From contig NZ_JAAMFJ010000002.1 in NCBI RefSeq assembly GCF_018437235.1, positions 1 to 64,000 of the forward strand: DNA of 64,000 nt, in the 5' to 3' direction. The notes under the pieces are model-generated. The model worked only from the letters and a program-made list of their open reading frames with translations. It was not told the origin of the DNA and made no database searches. Source of the DNA: Fructobacillus papyrifericola. Lineage in GTDB: Bacteria; Bacillota; Bacilli; Lactobacillales; Lactobacillaceae. The position numbers and the translations under genes are program-made. Positions 49,485 to 57,233 of the stretch are shown here, one piece after another. Each line of letters opens with the position of its first letter. The stretch's first letter is position 1.

Positions 49485-49544
49485 ATGAAATCAATCAACT
49501 TAAACATGATGAACCGTTACTACGGCTTTTATTACTTTAGATAG
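49485..49544 (+). CDS. Tyr/Phe-rich leader peptide of the aromatic operon
   Basis: ATG at 49485 with an AGGAAAGGA SD encodes MKSINLNMMNRYYGFYYFR followed by TAG (49542-49544). Six of the last nine residues are Tyr or Phe (YYGFYYF). Stalling of a ribosome at these codons when Tyr- or Phe-tRNA is uncharged is the classic input of transcription attenuation (as in pheL of enterobacteria). It is followed by alternative hairpins and a terminator before aroE. Confidence 0.85.
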   Translation: MKSINLNMMNRYYGFYYFR

Positions 49545-49712
49545 CACGTCCGGATCTGATGCGGACGTGCCGACACGTTCGCATCTAAGTAGTAAGAGTC
49601 ATTTTTAACTCGGCTGACTAGGTGCACCCCTAGTCAGCGATTGATGAATTTTGTTCGGAATTTTTTCCACACAATTTTTAGGCCGACTAGGTTTTCCTAG
49701 TCGGCCTTTTTT
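49544..49712 (+). promoter_or_regulatory. Attenuator of the aromatic operon
   Basis: Segment 1 GCACGTCC (49544-49551) pairs with segment 2 GGACGTGC (49563-49570), or segment 2 (GCGGACGTG) with segment 3 CACGTTCGC (49574-49582). A strong hairpin GCTGACTAGG/CCTAGTCAGC (49613-49638) shares its arms with the terminator GGCCGACTAGG-TTTT-CCTAGTCGGCC (49681-49706, then TTTTTT), so these can pair with each other. The leader peptide lies upstream. No T-box consensus sequence is present. Confidence 0.8.
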
Positions 49713-49738: not shown

Positions 49739-50620
49739 ATGACAAGAATCGATGGACACACAATTTTAATCGGCTTGATGGCATACCCAATTCGCCACTC
49801 CATGTCACCAACCATGCATAACACAGCTTTTGAGGCGTTGAACTTAAACTACGCTTACCTAGCCTTCGACATTGATGGACATCAGTTAGCCGATGGTGTC
49901 AAAGCCATTCGTACTTTGGACATGCGTGGATCAAACGTATCCATGCCGAACAAGCAGGCCATCATCCCCCATTTAGACAAGTTGGATATCTCAGCTAAGA
50001 TGACCGGCGCCGTCAACACGGTGGTCAACGACGACGGCGTCTTAACCGGTTACACAACGGACGGTGTTGGGTTCGTCAACGACCTTAAAAAGAAGGGGCA
50101 TGATGTTGCTGGTAAAAAGATGCTAATCGTTGGTGCCGGTGGCGCTGGTATTCCAATCGCCGCTCAATCAGCAATTGAAGGCGCCAGCGATATTCGTATT
50201 GCCAACCGTAAAGACGGCCATTTAAAAAAAGCCGAAGAAATTGCGGATAGCATTAACGAAAACTCTGGTGCTGTTGCTTCGACTTTTACATTAGAAGACG
50301 GGGAAGCCTTCAAGGCAGCACTTGCCTGGGCTGACATCTACGTGGATGCCACTGGTGTTGGCATGAAGCCTTTGGAAGGCAAGGCATTGGTTAACGACCC
50401 AAGTTGGTTAAAAGAAGACCTCGTGATTTACGACACCGTTTACGCCCCACGCACCACAAAGCTCATGGAAGTTGCCAAGAAAGCAGGCGTTAAAAACGTC
50501 TACAACGGACTCGGCATGATGGTTGAACAAGGAGCAGCCGCCTTCAAACTATGGACGGGACAAGAAATGCCCATCGACTTAGTAGAACAGGCCATGGCCG
50601 AAAAGGATAAAGAAAAATGA
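49739..50620 (+). CDS. aroE: Shikimate dehydrogenase
   Basis: NADP-dependent reduction of 3-dehydroshikimate to shikimate. The 293-aa protein has the N-terminal substrate domain with LIGLMAYPIRHSMSPTMHN (SxS shikimate-binding), SNVSMPNKQAI (catalytic Lys in NK), GAVNT, then the Rossmann domain with GAGGAGIPIAAQ near residue 130 and Asp in the DAT segment, ending YNGLGMMVEQGA. SD AGGAAG. First structural gene behind the attenuator; in other Firmicutes it sits in the yqe block instead. Could also act on quinate, as some AroE/YdiB do. Confidence 0.95.
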   Translation: MTRIDGHTILIGLMAYPIRHSMSPTMHNTAFEALNLNYAYLAFDIDGHQLADGVKAIRTLDMRGSNVSMPNKQAIIPHLDKLDISAKMTGAVNTVVNDDGVLTGYTTDGVGFVNDLKKKGHDVAGKKMLIVGAGGAGIPIAAQSAIEGASDIRIANRKDGHLKKAEEIADSINENSGAVASTFTLEDGEAFKAALAWADIYVDATGVGMKPLEGKALVNDPSWLKEDLVIYDTVYAPRTTKLMEVAKKAGVKNVYNGLGMMVEQGAAAFKLWTGQEMPIDLVEQAMAEKDKEK

Positions 50621-51381
50621 CAGAAGCCGTTTATACACGAAACATTGCAGTTGGAAGTGGCCCAGCCAAGGTGGCCATTCCCATCACAGTGGTGACACCA
50701 GATGAACTCACAAAGTTACTGCCCACTATTCAAGAAGCGAACCCTGACATTGTCGAATGGCGCGTGGACTTCTTGGAAAAGTGGCAAGACGATGCAACCT
50801 TAGTGGAAATCTCTTCTAGCATTCGCCAAGCATTCCCTGAAACACCAATTATCGCAACCTATCGAACAAAGGAAGAGGGTGGCGAACAAACCATTCGCCC
50901 TGCCGACTACGAACGGATCTTGAAACGCTTGGCCGAGTTACCAGTTGACATGGTCGACGTTGAGATCAACCGTGAGGCATGCATCGTGGAAGAAGCAGTC
51001 AAAGCCATCCATCAACTTGATAAAATTGTCATCGCATCTTTCCACGACTTTAACAACACGCCCAGTACTGAACAACTAGAGAACACCTTCAACAAGATGC
51101 AGTCAGCAAAGGCCGATGTTTTAAAAGTCGCCGTGATGCCTCACACCACAGAAGACGTTCTTCAGCTCATGTCCTTCAGTCAGCAGGCTGCTCGCAAATC
51201 CCCTGAACCAATCGTTACCATGGCCATGGGCCAACTTGGTTCCGTGACACGAGTGGCCAATCATATTACCCACTCCGCCATTACCTTTGCGTGCTTAACT
51301 AAAGAACAGGCATCAGCGCCAGGTCAAATTGAAATCAACAACCTGCGCAGCATTCAACACACCCTAGAAGGAGATAGCTAA
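50617..51381 (+). CDS. aroD: 3-dehydroquinate dehydratase, type I
   Basis: Converts 3-dehydroquinate to 3-dehydroshikimate through a Schiff base. The 254-aa TIM barrel has EWRVDFLEKW (Glu-Arg), the catalytic His in ASFHDFNNTPS near residue 143 and the Schiff-base Lys in VLKVAVMPHT near 170, with MAMGQLGSVTRV at the C-terminal part. It overlaps aroE by 4 bases (ATGA) and the MFS gene by one base. It can use dehydroquinate from quinate as well as from aroB. Confidence 0.94.
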   Translation: MTEAVYTRNIAVGSGPAKVAIPITVVTPDELTKLLPTIQEANPDIVEWRVDFLEKWQDDATLVEISSSIRQAFPETPIIATYRTKEEGGEQTIRPADYERILKRLAELPVDMVDVEINREACIVEEAVKAIHQLDKIVIASFHDFNNTPSTEQLENTFNKMQSAKADVLKVAVMPHTTEDVLQLMSFSQQAARKSPEPIVTMAMGQLGSVTRVANHITHSAITFACLTKEQASAPGQIEINNLRSIQHTLEGDS

Positions 51382-52820
51382 TGAATACACAAGTCACTAA
51401 CCGACTTCGAGCCGGACTATACGCCAACTACCTGGTTCACGGTTTTGGCATGATCATTCTAACTCAGAATTTGATCCAACTTGCTCATAACTGGTCGAGT
51501 ACCTTAACCGCCGCTTCCTTCGTTCTATCTGGAATTGGAATTGGCCGTTTGGTTGCTTACCTCCTAATGGGTTTCATCTCCGACCACTTTGGTCGTAAGA
51601 CTTCCTTATTAATTGGAATTACCACTTACTTCCTATTCTTGGTACTAACGCCAATCAACACCTCGGTGGCTATGGCATACGGCTTAACCATCCTAGCTGG
51701 TGTTGCAAACTCCGCCATGGATTCGGCGACCTACCCACTGCTAGAGGAAATCTCCAAGAAGAGTACCTCAAACACGGTTTTGCTAAAGGCTTTCATCTCA
51801 ACCGGTGAGTTCATCCTTCCACTGATTGTTCTCTACCTATCTGATAACAACCTCTGGTTCGGTCTTTCCTTCATGGTTCCGGCAGCCATCCTAGCTTTGA
51901 ACTTTATCAACATTTGGACCTTACCGATCAAGAAGATTCAACAGGCCAAAGTCGAAGAAAAGCCAAGCCAGTCAGTTGCTCTACATGGCATTCGCAAGAC
52001 CGTTCTAATGGCCGCTTTGCTCCTTTACGGTTTCTCATCAATGGCCGTGATGATCTGGTTCACCCAGTGGATTACCATCTACGCAACGGGCGTTGGCTTC
52101 TCGAAGTCGGTGGCCCACTTCCTACTCTCCCTCTACAGTATCGGTTCCATTACTGGTGTTCTTACAGTAGTAACTGTACTTCGCCGCTTCAACATTAAAA
52201 AAGAACTCTTCCTATTGTTGAACACCCTTTCACTCCTATCCATTGTGACTTTGTCAATGAGCTCAATCGAAACAGTGGCTAACATCTCCACCCTTGTCTT
52301 CGGTTTCTCAGCCGCCGGCGGTTTGATGCAAATTGCCTTAAATAGCTTGCTATCGCTAACAGCTAAGAACAAAGGCTTGATGACGGGAACCTTCTTCATC
52401 TTCGGATCGCTGGCCTCCTTCGCGGTGCCAATTATTACCGGACTGTTGATTAAGAACCCAAACATCAACATCATCCTAGCCGATTCTTCCATGGCCCTCA
52501 TGTCCTTTTCCATCGCCATCGTTTTCTACGCCCTTCTTCCAAAGGAAGCGCAGTCACTAAAGGACGCCCGCAAGGAAATCGACCGGATTGATAAGCAGCT
52601 ACTTCGCTTATCCGAGCAACGCTTCACCGCCGTCGAAGATGTTATCCGCTTCAAGCAGCAAGACGACATCGCCGTCGAAGACTTGTCCCGTGAACAAAAA
52701 GTGCTTGATAAGATTGCTAAGAACAGTCAAAAAAAAGCACTCATTCCATATAACCAAGCCATCTGGCAGGCCATGATGAATGAATCAAAGGCTTATCAAG
52801 TATCGAAACAAGACAACTAA
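51381..52820 (+). CDS. MFS transporter fused to an AroQ-type chorismate mutase
   Basis: A 479-aa fusion. Residues 1-385 form a 12-helix MFS transporter (helix 2-3 loop DHFGRKTS, a typical MFS signature). Residues 392-475 form a chorismate mutase of E. coli AroQ type: Arg397, Arg414, Lys425, Asp434, Arg437, Glu438, Ser469 and Gln473 align with E. coli Arg11, Arg28, Lys39, Asp48, Arg51, Glu52, Ser84 and Gln88, with almost the same spacing. All active-site residues are present, so the domain should convert chorismate to prephenate at the inner membrane face. Gene overlaps aroD. The transported solute is unknown; quinate, dehydroquinate or shikimate would fit. Confidence 0.93.
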   Translation: MNTQVTNRLRAGLYANYLVHGFGMIILTQNLIQLAHNWSSTLTAASFVLSGIGIGRLVAYLLMGFISDHFGRKTSLLIGITTYFLFLVLTPINTSVAMAYGLTILAGVANSAMDSATYPLLEEISKKSTSNTVLLKAFISTGEFILPLIVLYLSDNNLWFGLSFMVPAAILALNFINIWTLPIKKIQQAKVEEKPSQSVALHGIRKTVLMAALLLYGFSSMAVMIWFTQWITIYATGVGFSKSVAHFLLSLYSIGSITGVLTVVTVLRRFNIKKELFLLLNTLSLLSIVTLSMSSIETVANISTLVFGFSAAGGLMQIALNSLLSLTAKNKGLMTGTFFIFGSLASFAVPIITGLLIKNPNINIILADSSMALMSFSIAIVFYALLPKEAQSLKDARKEIDRIDKQLLRLSEQRFTAVEDVIRFKQQDDIAVEDLSREQKVLDKIAKNSQKKALIPYNQAIWQAMMNESKAYQVSKQDN

Positions 52821-52842: not shown

Positions 52843-54012
52843 ATGATCAACTACATTACCGCAGGCGAATCACACGGACCAGAACTTTCTGGTATTTTAA
52901 CTGGCATTCCCGCCGGCCTTCACTTAGACATTGACGAAATCAACGCTGCCCTTTCCGCCCGTCAGGGTGGCTACGGTCGTGGTAACCGTCAAAAGATTGA
53001 ACATGACCAAGTCATCATCACCGGGGGTGTTCGTCACGGCGTGACTTTGGGCTCACCGATTGCCTTAACGATTAAGAACCGCGACCACGCCCAGTGGTCC
53101 AAAATCATGGACCCCGTCACGCCTGCAAACGCTGAGAACACGCTGCGTGCTGTTTCACGTCCACGGCCCGGCCATGCCGACCTTGTTGGTGGTATGAAGT
53201 ACGGCCATCGGGATATGCGCAACGTCTTGGAACGGTCTTCTGCTCGTGAAACCGCCATGCGTGTGGCCATTGGAAACATTTGTAAGCAGGTCTTAGAAGC
53301 ATTGGACGTCAAGATTGTCGGACACGTTGAATCAATCGGCGGTATCCAAGCCGCTGGTGACCTTTCAACTGACGTTGCCAGAATCGAAGCGGGTATCCAA
53401 AAAAACGACCTCCGCATCTTGGACCAAAGTAAGGTCGAAGAAATCCACGACCGAATCGACCAGGCCAAGCGCGAAGGTGACACTCTCGGCGGTGTCATCC
53501 GAGTTGTGGCAACCAACTTGCCAGCCGGCCTTGGTTCCTACACCTCTTGGGATACCAAACTCGATGCCAAAGTCGCTGGTGCTGTTGTCGGCGTCAACGC
53601 CATGAAGGGCTGCGAAATCGGTGACGGCTTTGAGAATGCCGTTCGCCCAGGTTCCCAAGTCATGGATGAAATCGACTGGGAAGAAGGCAAGGGCTTCACT
53701 CGTAATTCCGATCACTTGGGTGGTTTCGAAGGTGGTATGACAAACGGTATGCCCGTCATTGTTAAGGCAGCCATGAAGCCGATTCCAACCCTCTACAAGC
53801 CATTACAGTCCGCAGACATCAACTCAAAGGAAATCAAGAAGGCAACGGTGGAACGTTCGGACACGACCGCCATTGTGCCAGCCTCCATCGTGATTGAATC
53901 GGTGGTGGCCATCGAATTGGCCAAGGCCATCACAGAAACCTTCGACGGTTCCCAAATCGACCGCTTGAAAAAGCAGGTTCAAGACTACCGCGAAGAATTG
54001 AAGAACTTCTAA
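52843..54012 (+). CDS. aroC: Chorismate synthase
   Basis: FMN-dependent conversion of EPSP to chorismate. The 389-aa enzyme has GESHGPELSGILTGIPAG near the start, RQGGYGRGNRQKIE, SRPRPGHADLVGGMKY, ERSSARETA and DSHLGG-type (SDHLGGFEGGMTNG) motifs. Start at 52843 (MINYITAGESHG) with a GAGGAAAA SD; an upstream frame to 52780 overlaps the MFS gene and is not used. Confidence 0.96.
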   Translation: MINYITAGESHGPELSGILTGIPAGLHLDIDEINAALSARQGGYGRGNRQKIEHDQVIITGGVRHGVTLGSPIALTIKNRDHAQWSKIMDPVTPANAENTLRAVSRPRPGHADLVGGMKYGHRDMRNVLERSSARETAMRVAIGNICKQVLEALDVKIVGHVESIGGIQAAGDLSTDVARIEAGIQKNDLRILDQSKVEEIHDRIDQAKREGDTLGGVIRVVATNLPAGLGSYTSWDTKLDAKVAGAVVGVNAMKGCEIGDGFENAVRPGSQVMDEIDWEEGKGFTRNSDHLGGFEGGMTNGMPVIVKAAMKPIPTLYKPLQSADINSKEIKKATVERSDTTAIVPASIVIESVVAIELAKAITETFDGSQIDRLKKQVQDYREELKNF

Positions 54013-54021
54013 GGAGCACCT

Positions 54022-55296
54022 ATGACAACCCCGACTTTAAAAGGAAGCATCCAGGTCCCCGGTGACAAATCAATTTCCCACCGTGCCATCATTTTTGGGG
54101 CTATTGCAGAAGGCGACACTCACGTTAAAAACTTTCTTCGTTCAAACGACTGCTTGGCAACCCTTCAGGCCTTTCGTCAAATGGGTGTTTCAATCGACGA
54201 ACAAGGCGGCGAATTAATCGTGCACGGCGTCGGCTTAAACGGTCTGTCAGCTAGCTCAGCAGATCTCAACATGCAGAACTCTGGCACTTCAACCCGCTTA
54301 CTAGCCGGGCTTTTGGCCGGGCAGGACTTTAAAAGCCGCATGATTGGTGACGCCTCCTTGTCCAAGCGTCCAATGGACCGTGTCATCGCGCCTTTGACCC
54401 AAATGGGTGCTGAACTAGCCGCTACCGAAGGCCATTTGCCAATGACGGTGAAGGGGCAGGCATTACACGGTATCAACTACCGTTTACCCGTTGCTTCAGC
54501 CCAGGTGAAGTCCGCCATTTTATTGGCTGCCTTGACGGCCGAGGACGAAACGGTGATTGAAGAACCACTTCCTTGCCGTGACCACAGCGAACGAATGTTA
54601 GCTCTTTTCTCACCAGAAAGTATCGAACAAACTGGGGATAAGATTCACATTCGCCCTGGTTATCCACTAAAGGGACAAGAAGTGCTTGTTCCTTCAGATA
54701 TCTCCTCAGCCGCCTTCTTCCTGGTGGCTGGTGCTATCGTTCCTGGTTCAAAGATTACCATCGAATCCGTTGGGATGAACCCCACCCGTACCGGAATCAT
54801 CAAGTTGTTAGAACAGATGGACGCTGACTTAACAATTGATTCAATCGACACAGCCGGTGAACCAATGGCTAACTTAACCATTCAGGCTGGACCTTTAAAG
54901 CCATTTAACATCACCGAAGAAGACATCCCCGCTCTGGTCGACGAAGTACCAATCCTGGCTCTTCTTGCCGCCCGTGCTGACGGTGTCTCCACTATCTCTG
55001 GTGCAGCTGAATTACGTGTTAAGGAATCCGACCGCTTGGCCGCGATTGCCACCGAATTCAAAAAGCTTGGCATTCAAATTGAGGAAAAGCCAGACGGACT
55101 TATCATTACTGGTTCAACAGAACCACTCCATGTGGCAGACAAGCAACTCGAATCATACGGTGATCACCGCATTGCCATGACTTTAAAAGTCGCTAGCCTC
55201 TTAACTGACCAAGCAGTCAACATCCGAGATGAAGACTGCATGGCGGTATCCTACCCCAACTTTACCAAGGACCTAAACCAACTACTAAGGAAGTAA
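54022..55296 (+). CDS. aroA: 5-enolpyruvylshikimate-3-phosphate synthase
   Basis: Transfers enolpyruvyl from PEP to shikimate-3-phosphate. The 424-aa protein shows GDKSISHRAIIFGAIAEGDT, LNMQNSGTSTRLLAGLLAG, GDASLSKRPM (the RP segment), LPVASAQVKSAILLAAL, PSDISSAAFFLVAGA and ELRVKESDRL with SYGDHRIAM at the C-terminus. All are intact. Normal length. It starts 9 bases after aroC and lies before tyrA. Confidence 0.96.
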   Translation: MTTPTLKGSIQVPGDKSISHRAIIFGAIAEGDTHVKNFLRSNDCLATLQAFRQMGVSIDEQGGELIVHGVGLNGLSASSADLNMQNSGTSTRLLAGLLAGQDFKSRMIGDASLSKRPMDRVIAPLTQMGAELAATEGHLPMTVKGQALHGINYRLPVASAQVKSAILLAALTAEDETVIEEPLPCRDHSERMLALFSPESIEQTGDKIHIRPGYPLKGQEVLVPSDISSAAFFLVAGAIVPGSKITIESVGMNPTRTGIIKLLEQMDADLTIDSIDTAGEPMANLTIQAGPLKPFNITEEDIPALVDEVPILALLAARADGVSTISGAAELRVKESDRLAAIATEFKKLGIQIEEKPDGLIITGSTEPLHVADKQLESYGDHRIAMTLKVASLLTDQAVNIRDEDCMAVSYPNFTKDLNQLLRK

Positions 55297-55300
55297 GAAC

Positions 55301-56161
55301 ATGACCACAGTCTTTATCGACGGCTTGGGCTTTATCGGCGCCAGCCTTGCGGAATTAATGAAAGAGAGTCAGCCAGATGTCAAAATCATCGCGCATGACC
55401 CAAATCCCGAAAACCTTCAGGTAATGATACAGTCTGGCACTGTTGAAGCATCCGTTGCTTTCGATGAAGGTGCCAAAAAGGCCGACTGGATTTTCTTAGC
55501 TAGCCCAGTGGCGGTCATCTGCCAACGCCTAGAAGAACTTGCTAAGCTCGATTTAAAGTCTGGTGCCGTCGTCACCGACGTTGGTTCTTCAAAGGTCCAG
55601 ATTGAAAAGAGTGCCCAGACATTGATGGCAAAAGGAACCGCCTTCTTGGCTGGTCACCCAATGGCCGGTTCTCATCTTTCTGGTGCAGCAAATGCCAACC
55701 CAGGGCGCTTGGTAGACCACACTTACTTCCTCATTCAAGAAAATACCAGCCAAGAAGAAGTTCAGGATTTCGAAGACTTACTTTCCGCAGCACGCTTTGA
55801 CTTTCGAATGGTCGATGCCAAGAGCCACGACCACATTGTGGCCAGCTCTTCTCACCTACCCCACCTACTCGCCTTTGCCTTAGCCGAAACAGTGGCAAAG
55901 GACCAGCGAGAATCGGATGTTGACTGGGGAAAGCCAGCTGCTGGCTTCTTGGATGCTAGCCGGATTGCCAAGGCTGACCCCACCATGTGGACCAGCATCT
56001 TCCTGTCGAACCCGAACCAGGTCCTAGCCGAAATTACGGACTTTGAAAAAGAAGTACAAAAGTTGAAAAAGTATATCGAAAACGGTCAGGAAAAGAAACT
56101 TTTTAACCAACTAAGTGCAACCCAAAAAGATCGCATTCAAATGGAGAAAGAACATGAATAA
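55301..56161 (+). CDS. tyrA: Prephenate dehydrogenase
   Basis: NAD-dependent oxidative decarboxylation of prephenate to 4-hydroxyphenylpyruvate, for tyrosine. The 286-aa protein has the Rossmann motif DGLGFIGASLAELM near the N-terminus, VTDVGSSK, AGHPMAGSHLSGA (active-site His) and SSSHLPHLLAFAL. It lacks the C-terminal ACT domain, so it may not be feedback inhibited; the attenuator may be the main control. It overlaps aroK (ATGAATAA). Confidence 0.94.
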   Translation: MTTVFIDGLGFIGASLAELMKESQPDVKIIAHDPNPENLQVMIQSGTVEASVAFDEGAKKADWIFLASPVAVICQRLEELAKLDLKSGAVVTDVGSSKVQIEKSAQTLMAKGTAFLAGHPMAGSHLSGAANANPGRLVDHTYFLIQENTSQEEVQDFEDLLSAARFDFRMVDAKSHDHIVASSSHLPHLLAFALAETVAKDQRESDVDWGKPAAGFLDASRIAKADPTMWTSIFLSNPNQVLAEITDFEKEVQKLKKYIENGQEKKLFNQLSATQKDRIQMEKEHE

Positions 56162-56666
56162 TCCAATTTTAATCGGCTTCATGGGCTCCGGTAAAACAAC
56201 CGTTGGCCGTGAACTTGCCAAACAATTGAATATCCCCTTCTCCGATTTGGATTTAGTCATTGAAAATCGAATCGGTCAAACGATCCCTGAATTCTTTTCC
56301 AACATGGGTGAAGCTGCCTTCCGAAAAATCGAAGCGAACCAACTCATTACTGAACTAGACAGTGAAAATATTTTAGCAACCGGGGGTGGCACTGCCTGCC
56401 AGGCCGTGAACCAGGAAATTTTAATCCAACACGACCGGCCAGTTATTTGGTTACAGCCATCCGATGAAACCACCATCGCCAACCTATCTGGTGAAGACTG
56501 GGATAAGCGCCCCATCTTAGCCGATAAAAGCGTGGATGACTTAATTGCCCTAAAAGATTCTCGGCGGGAAAAATACGGTAAGACAGCTGATTTAATTATC
56601 CAAGTCGACCAGAAAACACCGAAAGAAATTGCCAAAGAAATTATTGAAGCACTAAAAAACGTCTGA
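56154..56666 (+). CDS. aroK: Shikimate kinase
   Basis: Phosphorylates shikimate with ATP. The 170-aa P-loop kinase has GFMGSGKTTVGRELA near residue 8, SDLDLVIENRIG (shikimate-binding Asp), FRKIE, LATGGGTA (GGG shikimate loop) and the lid Arg region DKRPIL, with SRREKYGKTAD. Start at 56154 with GGAGAAAG SD, overlapping the tyrA stop. Longer frame from 56115 is excluded by overlap. Confidence 0.95.
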   Translation: MNNPILIGFMGSGKTTVGRELAKQLNIPFSDLDLVIENRIGQTIPEFFSNMGEAAFRKIEANQLITELDSENILATGGGTACQAVNQEILIQHDRPVIWLQPSDETTIANLSGEDWDKRPILADKSVDDLIALKDSRREKYGKTADLIIQVDQKTPKEIAKEIIEALKNV

Positions 56667-56687: not shown

Positions 56688-57233
56688 ATGCCTCTTATCC
56701 ATACCCTTGGTCCCAAGGAAACCGACGCGAACCTAGCAGCCCGTACCTTACAAGATGAGGACCCCCACTATCGGGGCCTTCCCATTCAGCTCCACCCCGA
56801 CTTTTCCTCCGTCTATGCCAATCTGGCTACGTACAAGGGTGACTACTTCTTAGTTCCCGTTGGCTATCAGGGCCCTGCTGGTGATAGCTGGACCAGCCAG
56901 CACTATGCCCACTGGCAAGAGCTTTCCATTCAAAAGACTTGGGCAGCGCCCACCATGGAAATGCTCTTAGTTGAAAACACCGAAGTGCAAAATGGCAAAG
57001 CCGTCAGCCACAAGACGACCACCGCACTGCTAGATGACTTTGCCAGCCAAAATATGCTCAGCCTCGATGTTGACTACGTCCCGGCTAAACCACTGGCTGC
57101 CGATTCCTTTCTAAAAGGTGATTATCAATACGCTATCTTCAGCCAAAACGCAGAAGTAAAGCTCAAGGCATCCCATCGTATTATCGAACGCTTCCAGCCC
57201 GAAATGATCTGGTGCCTCTATCAAATCAAGTAA
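56688..57233 (+). CDS. Prephenate dehydratase/BacA-fold-like protein, end of the aromatic operon
   Basis: A 181-aa soluble protein, start ATG 56688 with AGAAAGGA. It begins IHTLGPKETDANLAARTL, resembling the LGPEGTxSExAA start of prephenate dehydratase and of B. subtilis prephenate decarboxylase BacA, and has LVPVGYQGPAGDSW in the position of VPxxY-type PDT/BacA core. I cannot find the TRF motif of classical PheA, and there is no ACT domain. In the operon, prephenate would be its natural substrate. It may be a divergent dehydratase (to phenylpyruvate) or a decarboxylase, or a binding protein. Assignment tentative. Confidence 0.75.
   Translation: MPLIHTLGPKETDANLAARTLQDEDPHYRGLPIQLHPDFSSVYANLATYKGDYFLVPVGYQGPAGDSWTSQHYAHWQELSIQKTWAAPTMEMLLVENTEVQNGKAVSHKTTTALLDDFASQNMLSLDVDYVPAKPLAADSFLKGDYQYAIFSQNAEVKLKASHRIIERFQPEMIWCLYQIK

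Follow-up and report, generated by a model that had tools for sequence, protein, structure and literature searches.

What does an MFS transporter carry when its gene lies among the genes for chorismate synthesis, and why should the protein end in a chorismate mutase (CM)? These questions are raised by a 479-aa open reading frame (ORF) on the forward strand of a Fructobacillus papyrifericola draft genome (1.30 Mb, 93% complete), which encodes an MFS transporter with a C-terminal AroQ CM in one unbroken frame (51381 to 52820). Positions refer to the window, the whole 64,000-nucleotide stretch of contig NZ_JAAMFJ010000002.1 that we analyzed. A sequence-only reading had described the product as a 12-helix transporter joined to a fully conserved mutase, lying between aroD and aroC, and had proposed that import is coupled to metabolism or, alternatively, that the product is sensed. 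Our genome comparisons indicate that the protein is probably a YdiM/YdiN-type shikimate importer whose tethered AroQ domain would serve as the cell's CM_2-type chorismate mutase.

The transporter domain spans residues 1 to 385 (51381 to 52535, + strand). Its Pfam match to MFS_1 covered residues 15 to 350 (121.4 bits against a cut-off of 33.4), and a fold search aligned residues 1 to 390 with solved MFS structures in the PDB at Z scores up to 42.9; searches of this kind with the transporter returned only "MFS" and indicated no cargo. The AlphaFold2 model of the fusion (mean pLDDT 84.4) contains the MFS helices, then a nonhelical linker of 7 residues (386 to 392; 52536 to 52556, +) between the last transporter helix and the first CM helix, and finally the AroQ domain (residues 393 to 479 plus the stop codon; 52557 to 52820, +). 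The latter forms the three-helix AroQ protomer with its long first helix (residues 393 to 428, 435 to 448, and 452 to 478). For the claim of a 12-helix transporter, the MFS fold speaks in favor, and the twelve helices are taken from that fold, but a simple hydropathy scan counted only 10 segments. CM_2 matched residues 397 to 473 (57.8 bits against a Pfam cut-off of 27), which identifies an AroQ (type II) domain, and Pfam found MFS and CM_2 as the only domains of the protein, with no DAHP synthase domain. The CM domain scored 55.5 bits with the NCBIfam model for monofunctional gram-positive CMs (TIGR01805), under its cut-off of 71.2, and the MFS part scored 45.3 bits with that for the aromatic acid/H+ symporter family (TIGR00895), far under the cut-off of 418.55. 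Homology to E. coli YdiM (about 35% identity), shikimate-gene neighbors, and the C-terminal CM together place the protein among the CM fusions of the YdiM/YdiN subfamily. The usual MFS topology is compatible with a cytoplasmic AroQ domain.

The alignment bore out the claim that all eight catalytic residues are present, from Arg397 to Gln473: R397, R414, K425, D434, R437, E438, S469, and Q473 fall on R11, R28, K39, D48, R51, E52, S84, and Q88, which we take to be their E. coli counterparts. The single ORF was likewise confirmed, by its uninterrupted frame, by Pfam, and by its recurrence in 22 of 150 genomes (our own included), as open frames of 477 to 525 aa in which the transporter part also matched; this recurrence rules out assembly error or chance. 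Among 37 fused rows, which stand for 23 distinct genes, some of them present two or three times, seven of the eight residues were kept in every row; at the eighth position, 35 rows had Gln and 2 had Glu. The CM_2 match of the fusion was the sole one in 21 of the 22 fusion genomes, the exception (G057) having further, partly broken matches; these counts rest on CM_2, with AroH-type CMs (PF07736) lying outside the search. We infer that the AroQ domain catalyzes the mutase reaction.

Both domains are under purifying selection between the window and F. durionis, whose fusion protein (locus L032) is 92% identical and, after that of Fructobacillus sp. CRL 2054 (93%), the closest from a named relative in our scan. 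NG86 gave dN/dS values for this pair of 0.050 (MFS part) and 0.047 (CM part); with YN00 they were 0.064 and 0.112, respectively. The CM part was looser in some pairs (0.321 versus 0.072 for the MFS part in L039/L041), and several values for other pairs were undefined. We also looked in the 23 fused genes for an internal start preceded by a Shine-Dalgarno (SD) sequence near the start of the CM, in the interval reaching from 25 codons upstream of R11 to 11 codons downstream. None was found except in L041, which has a GTG 25 codons before R11 with GGAG upstream, and there is thus no indication that the CM is also made as a product of its own. Outside the Lactobacillaceae, no such fusion was seen among the longer CM_2 ORFs inspected in a phylum sample in which 109 of 398 genomes have CM_2. 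That sample held 17 CM_2 ORFs of more than 400 aa besides our own gene, and 11 were inspected, including all 8 of at least 440 aa; these 11 had no hydropathy transmembrane segment, and their similarity to MFS proteins went no further than a 16-residue stretch (E ~0.5).

The fusion gene sits within an aro operon on the + strand in the order aroE-aroD-[MFS-CM]-aroC-aroA-tyrA-aroK-PDT-like, where PDT-like denotes a divergent protein resembling prephenate dehydratase; its location between aroD and aroC was thus correctly reported. Upstream lie aroE for shikimate dehydrogenase (49739 to 50620; Shikimate_dh_N and SDH_C, with TIGR00507 over its cut-off) and aroD for type I 3-dehydroquinate dehydratase (50617 to 51381; DHquinase_I, with TIGR01093 over its cut-off), and the ATG of the fusion gene shares one base with the aroD stop codon (TAATG). 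Downstream come aroC for chorismate synthase (52843 to 54012; Chorismate_synt), whose ORF opens at 52780 and for which 52843 was chosen by eye as the likely start, aroA for EPSP synthase (54022 to 55296; EPSP_synthase), tyrA for prephenate dehydrogenase (55301 to 56161; PDH_N and PDH_C), and aroK for shikimate kinase (56115 to 56666, start codon provisional; SKI). The last gene (56688 to 57233) encodes the PDT-like protein. Its copy in the window had no Pfam or NCBIfam match; 7 of 14 aligned members matched PDT at E values up to 1 (best, 1.8e-4), and the top PDB folds for its model (pLDDT 93.5) were prephenate dehydratases, at TMq 0.57 to 0.62 with an rmsd over 5. The canonical domain (PF00800) was found in 0 of the 9 fusion genomes searched, and the PDT-like protein may be the missing prephenate dehydratase. 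Its gene was not seen in the stretches from G051 and G045.

The aroD and aroK genes of F. ficulneus (G005; L035/L131) are each in two pieces in different frames, through either decay or sequencing error. Nicoliella spurrieriana carries its aro operon with the fusion, and with trp genes near it, on a 344-kb record labeled a plasmid (NZ_CP093360.1; L144). In the public record, the only label on that fused gene is "MFS transporter", and none of the genes listed for the stretch shown, where the gene table is incomplete by design, is a CM. A chorismate mutase can therefore escape annotation in this form.

Upstream of aroE we found a leader ORF of 19 codons plus a stop (49485 to 49544, +), MKSINLNMMNRYYGFYYFR, which ends in RYYGFYYFR. 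It overlaps an attenuator-like region (49524 to 49707, +) whose paired elements were counted on 14 aligned rows. Three pairings (49524-49537/49587-49600, 49558-49569/49574-49585, and 49613-49622/49629-49638) accompany a strong terminator (49680-49691/49696-49707) that has a T run and ends 31 bases before aroE; two alternative pairings (49544-49552/49562-49570 and 49612-49622/49696-49706), all on the + strand, have arms in common with the terminated form, as an attenuator needs. Across the 14 aligned leaders, 95.3% of cells were paired in the terminated form and 94.3% in the alternative form. Changes on both sides of a pair affected 17 pairs of the terminated form, where slid controls gave 6 at most, and 9 pairs of the alternative form, where they gave no more than 3. 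In its number of pair types, however, the alternative form did not exceed shuffles, 264 of 500 of which reached that number. Of 26 leader regions, some of them near-copies, 21 contained an ATG ORF of 10 to 30 aa in which Tyr or Phe made up 6 or more of the final 10 residues, versus 3 of 1,040 shuffled ones. L039, L041, and L042 have looser versions of it, and L046 and L052 have none. Fourteen of the 26 regions have a perfect-stem terminator 49 to 70 bases upstream of the first gene, and in F. papyriferae and F. parabroussonetiae, where no aroE or aroD was found, the leader is directly 5' of the fusion gene. Rfam gave no match at the gathering threshold in the window, and 17 subthreshold hits around the leader were taken as chance. 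The leader, the mutually exclusive hairpins, and the terminator together look like a leader-peptide attenuator of the Lactobacillaceae. A Tyr/Phe-rich leader ahead of the operon supports a biosynthetic role for the transporter.

The early steps of the pathway are where the genome appears to depart from a complete route to chorismate. It has aroC, aroA, aroK, aroE, and aroD, but its 93% complete assembly gave no match for DHQ synthase (PF01761; the archaeal-type PF01959 lay outside the search) or for DAHP synthase (PF00793; type II PF01474 lay outside the search). Elsewhere in the sample, PF00793 matches in G030 and G068 fall in ORFs of 296 to 297 aa. We then compared the distribution of transporter homologs with that of DHQ synthase across the 150 genomes, 99 of which have chorismate synthase. 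At 140 bits or more, a line set after viewing the list, all 23 aroC+ genomes without DHQ synthase had a homolog, versus 23 of the 76 that have the enzyme; none of the 51 genomes without chorismate synthase had one. Other lines gave different counts, at 300 bits (17/23 versus 10/76), at 180 bits (21/23 versus 22/76), and at 90 bits (23/23 versus 25/76, with homologs in 4 of the 51 genomes without chorismate synthase as well). Homologs of the fusion clade only gave 19/23 versus 13/76; within the family the figures were 23/23 versus 15/30, and by genus they were 12/12 versus 12/35, and since the sampled genomes are related, Fisher p values for these comparisons are too small.

This distribution bears on the cargo. 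A substrate outside the shikimate pathway (a metal, isoprenol, or an exported aromatic product), of the sort proposed for E. coli YdiM, would agree with the E. coli phenotypes and listings in the available portion of PMC10588857, but the transporter belongs to the aro operon in the Lactobacillaceae, and its presence follows chorismate synthase and, among genomes having that enzyme, the absence of DHQ synthase. We consider such a cargo improbable. The transporter very probably imports some acid of the shikimate pathway, judging from these patterns of gene content, which suggest that import can make up for the lack of the first enzymes of aromatic amino acid synthesis. Gene reduction reported for one Fructobacillus clade, with fewer genes for shikimate among eleven amino acid pathways (PMC9934391, 2023, as far as the portion at hand goes), fits with the missing early steps. 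The importer would replace both DHQ synthase and DAHP synthase in 16 of the 22 fusion genomes, the host included. Six fusion genomes (G002, G006, G012, G043, G045, and G077) keep DHQ synthase, so the fusion as such is not tied to the loss of that enzyme.

The sharpest evidence for shikimate itself as the cargo is provided by four fused genomes (G003, G009, G051, and G076). AroK, EPSP synthase, and chorismate synthase are present in each, and searches found no AroB, no AroE, and no AroD of type I or II, with G051 being 87% complete. The retention of AroK in genomes without AroB, AroD, and AroE makes imported shikimate a plausible feed, and if the gene absences are real, nothing but imported shikimate can feed AroK in these four genomes. 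Three unfused genomes (G032, G068, and G073) show the same gene loss with a transporter homolog present; aroA was looked for in G073 among these three. None of them is a clean case, because the transporter frame of G073 is broken, the homologs of G032 and G068 are only about 34% identical and group with the other clade in the transporter tree, and G068 has the PF00793 match noted above. Of the 23 genomes without DHQ synthase, two had transporters that were not placed in the tree, namely, G073 and G044, whose transporter lies at contig ends. Where AroD and AroE are kept, dehydroshikimate or quinate is perhaps also carried.

Imported shikimate would then pass through AroK, AroA, and AroC to chorismate, the tethered AroQ domain would convert chorismate to prephenate, and prephenate would go on to TyrA and the divergent PDT-like protein. 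The proposal that import is directly coupled to the mutase reaction is not supported by this order of events, since AroK, AroA, and AroC act between shikimate and chorismate and make a direct handover to the mutase unlikely. Physical fusion of transporter and CM does invite the thought of a transported acid passing straight to the mutase, but the cargo would need to be chorismate, and aroK, aroA, and aroC are retained beside the fusion even where AroB, AroD, and AroE are gone. We regard such straight passage as very improbable.

Unfused neighbors at several loci bear on how the mutase came to be attached. A single in-frame stop parts MFS from CM in Limosilactobacillus mucosae (L045), L. frumenti (L046), L. 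alvi (L056), and strain MRS-253-APC-2B (L043); the two unfused genes overlap at ATGA in L085 and L087 (genomes G047 and G024); and loci L048 to L051 have the order MFS-aroE-aroD-CM-aroC. With neighbors only one stop or an overlap apart, the fusion looks like the outcome of a stop loss in the operon, and we infer that it arose when the stop between two neighboring operon genes was lost. A tree of 66 transporters, from which duplicate rows had been removed by hand, placed all 23 fused proteins inside a 46-row clade (support 100/100). The remaining 20 rows, separate from the fusion clade, include aroE-MFS-aroD clusters, within which distant unfused relatives of the transporter sit.

A single clade of the 23 fused rows was rejected (AU p 2.7e-9). 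When the nested unfused row from G020 was included, the clade was not rejected (AU p 0.13), which makes a single fusion with a single loss in G020 possible. The G020 transporter (G020:C1:1770649; L088, L113) lacks a CM domain and is nested among fused ones, with a separate 94-aa CM frame about 180 kb away; the fused domain was apparently lost or split off. Three other loci are worth recording. G057 has, on contig C72 (L116), a second, decayed cluster in which an unfused transporter lies by CM and aroK remnants and aroE; its intact fusion is located elsewhere. L098 and L099 (G111 and G106) hold unfused transporters in aroE-MFS-aroD-MFS clusters beside a protein of 674 to 677 aa that reads like an old-yellow-enzyme-type reductase, with a LysR-like regulator added in L099, both names coming from reading of the sequence alone; these clusters are possibly for quinate/shikimate use.

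An origin of this kind leaves room for a fusion without functional coupling, in which the two activities do not depend on each other and being joined only fixes the ratio of importer to mutase and puts the mutase at the membrane. Unfused neighbors separated by only a single stop or overlap, the nested unfused transporter of G020 with its CM elsewhere, and the occurrence of both fused (16) and unfused (7) homologs among genomes without DHQ synthase are all consistent with that idea. It fits less well with the persistence of the fusion, with a short linker (7 residues in the model), across several genera and with the absence of an internal start, bar one weak exception, and one origin with one loss (AU p 0.13) would imply long retention. 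We judge the chances of an uncoupled fusion to be evenly balanced.

Alternatively, and in line with the earlier suggestion of product sensing, the AroQ dimer, with prephenate or chorismate bound, might gate the entry of shikimate as a counterpart of the AroQ-DAHP synthase fusions. AroQ is attached to the entry point of the pathway in the transporter and DAHP synthase cases alike, CM_2 and PF00793 occur in one ORF in the eight f8 genomes having both (361 aa in G131, G138, and G145), prephenate or chorismate bound to AroQ inhibits DAHP synthase in the portion of PMC5526877 at hand, and CM fusions are thought to serve regulation according to the available part of PMC10588857. Weighing against such gating, the active site keeps all of its catalytic residues, and genomes of this kind also carry unfused forms. 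We offer this control of entry only tentatively, as a possibility with chances well below even. Within our preferred account of a shikimate importer with a tethered mutase, feedback of bound chorismate or prephenate on the transporter, as AroQ acts on DAHP synthase in Bacillus and Listeria, is the least certain part, and we would put it forward as a minority view.

A slightly more speculative extension joins this gate to the leader. In lactic acid bacteria without DAHP synthase, AroQ feedback might act on the shikimate importer in place of the first enzyme, with prephenate or chorismate on the tethered mutase shutting uptake, while the operon would be regulated at the level of transcription by the Tyr/Phe leader-peptide attenuator. 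We think this combination rather unlikely.

Under the shikimate importer hypothesis, these bacteria appear to take up environmental shikimate and to carry out just the final part of the pathway, of which the transporter would then be the committed step. Orphan transporters of the YdiM/YdiN group thereby gain a specific, testable cargo, and if AroQ gates transport, this would be a case of a metabolic enzyme exerting direct feedback on the transporter to which it is fused.

The transporter-CM architecture is already in print, contrary to the earlier suggestion that it is not a standard arrangement, though as "a handful of cases": the portion of PMC10588857 (PLoS One, 2023) available to us states that YdiM orthologs in Firmicutes often adjoin shikimate genes, with a handful fused to chorismate mutase, and presents the YdiM-CM fusion of F. 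durionis as an AlphaFold model. That protein, the 92% identical ortholog, has the same architecture and shikimate neighborhood. The same portion leaves its cargo open, brings in neither the loss of DHQ and DAHP synthases nor a shikimate-only feed, and does not discuss sole-CM status, a stop-loss origin, or the leader. What our genome comparison adds is a proposed function for the published fusion.

E. coli YdiM aligns over 77% of the query at the identity given above. Its gene lies in ydiM-ydiN-ydiB-aroD, beside those for quinate/shikimate dehydrogenase and AroD, but unlike the window protein, YdiM and YdiN have no CM domain. E. coli makes shikimate itself.

AroQ has been joined to other partners. 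The AroQ-DAHP synthase fusions of B. subtilis, Geobacillus, and Listeria, in which AroQ mediates inhibition by prephenate or chorismate (PMC5526877, in the portion at hand), resemble the window protein in having AroQ at the entry point of the pathway, but there the partner is an enzyme and AroQ is N-terminal, whereas here the partner is a transporter and AroQ is C-terminal. PheA and TyrA of E. coli and the exported CM-cyclohexadienyl dehydratase fusions also contain an AroQ-type CM within a bifunctional protein; as described in the accessible part of PMC10520331, their partners act on prephenate and none is a transporter.
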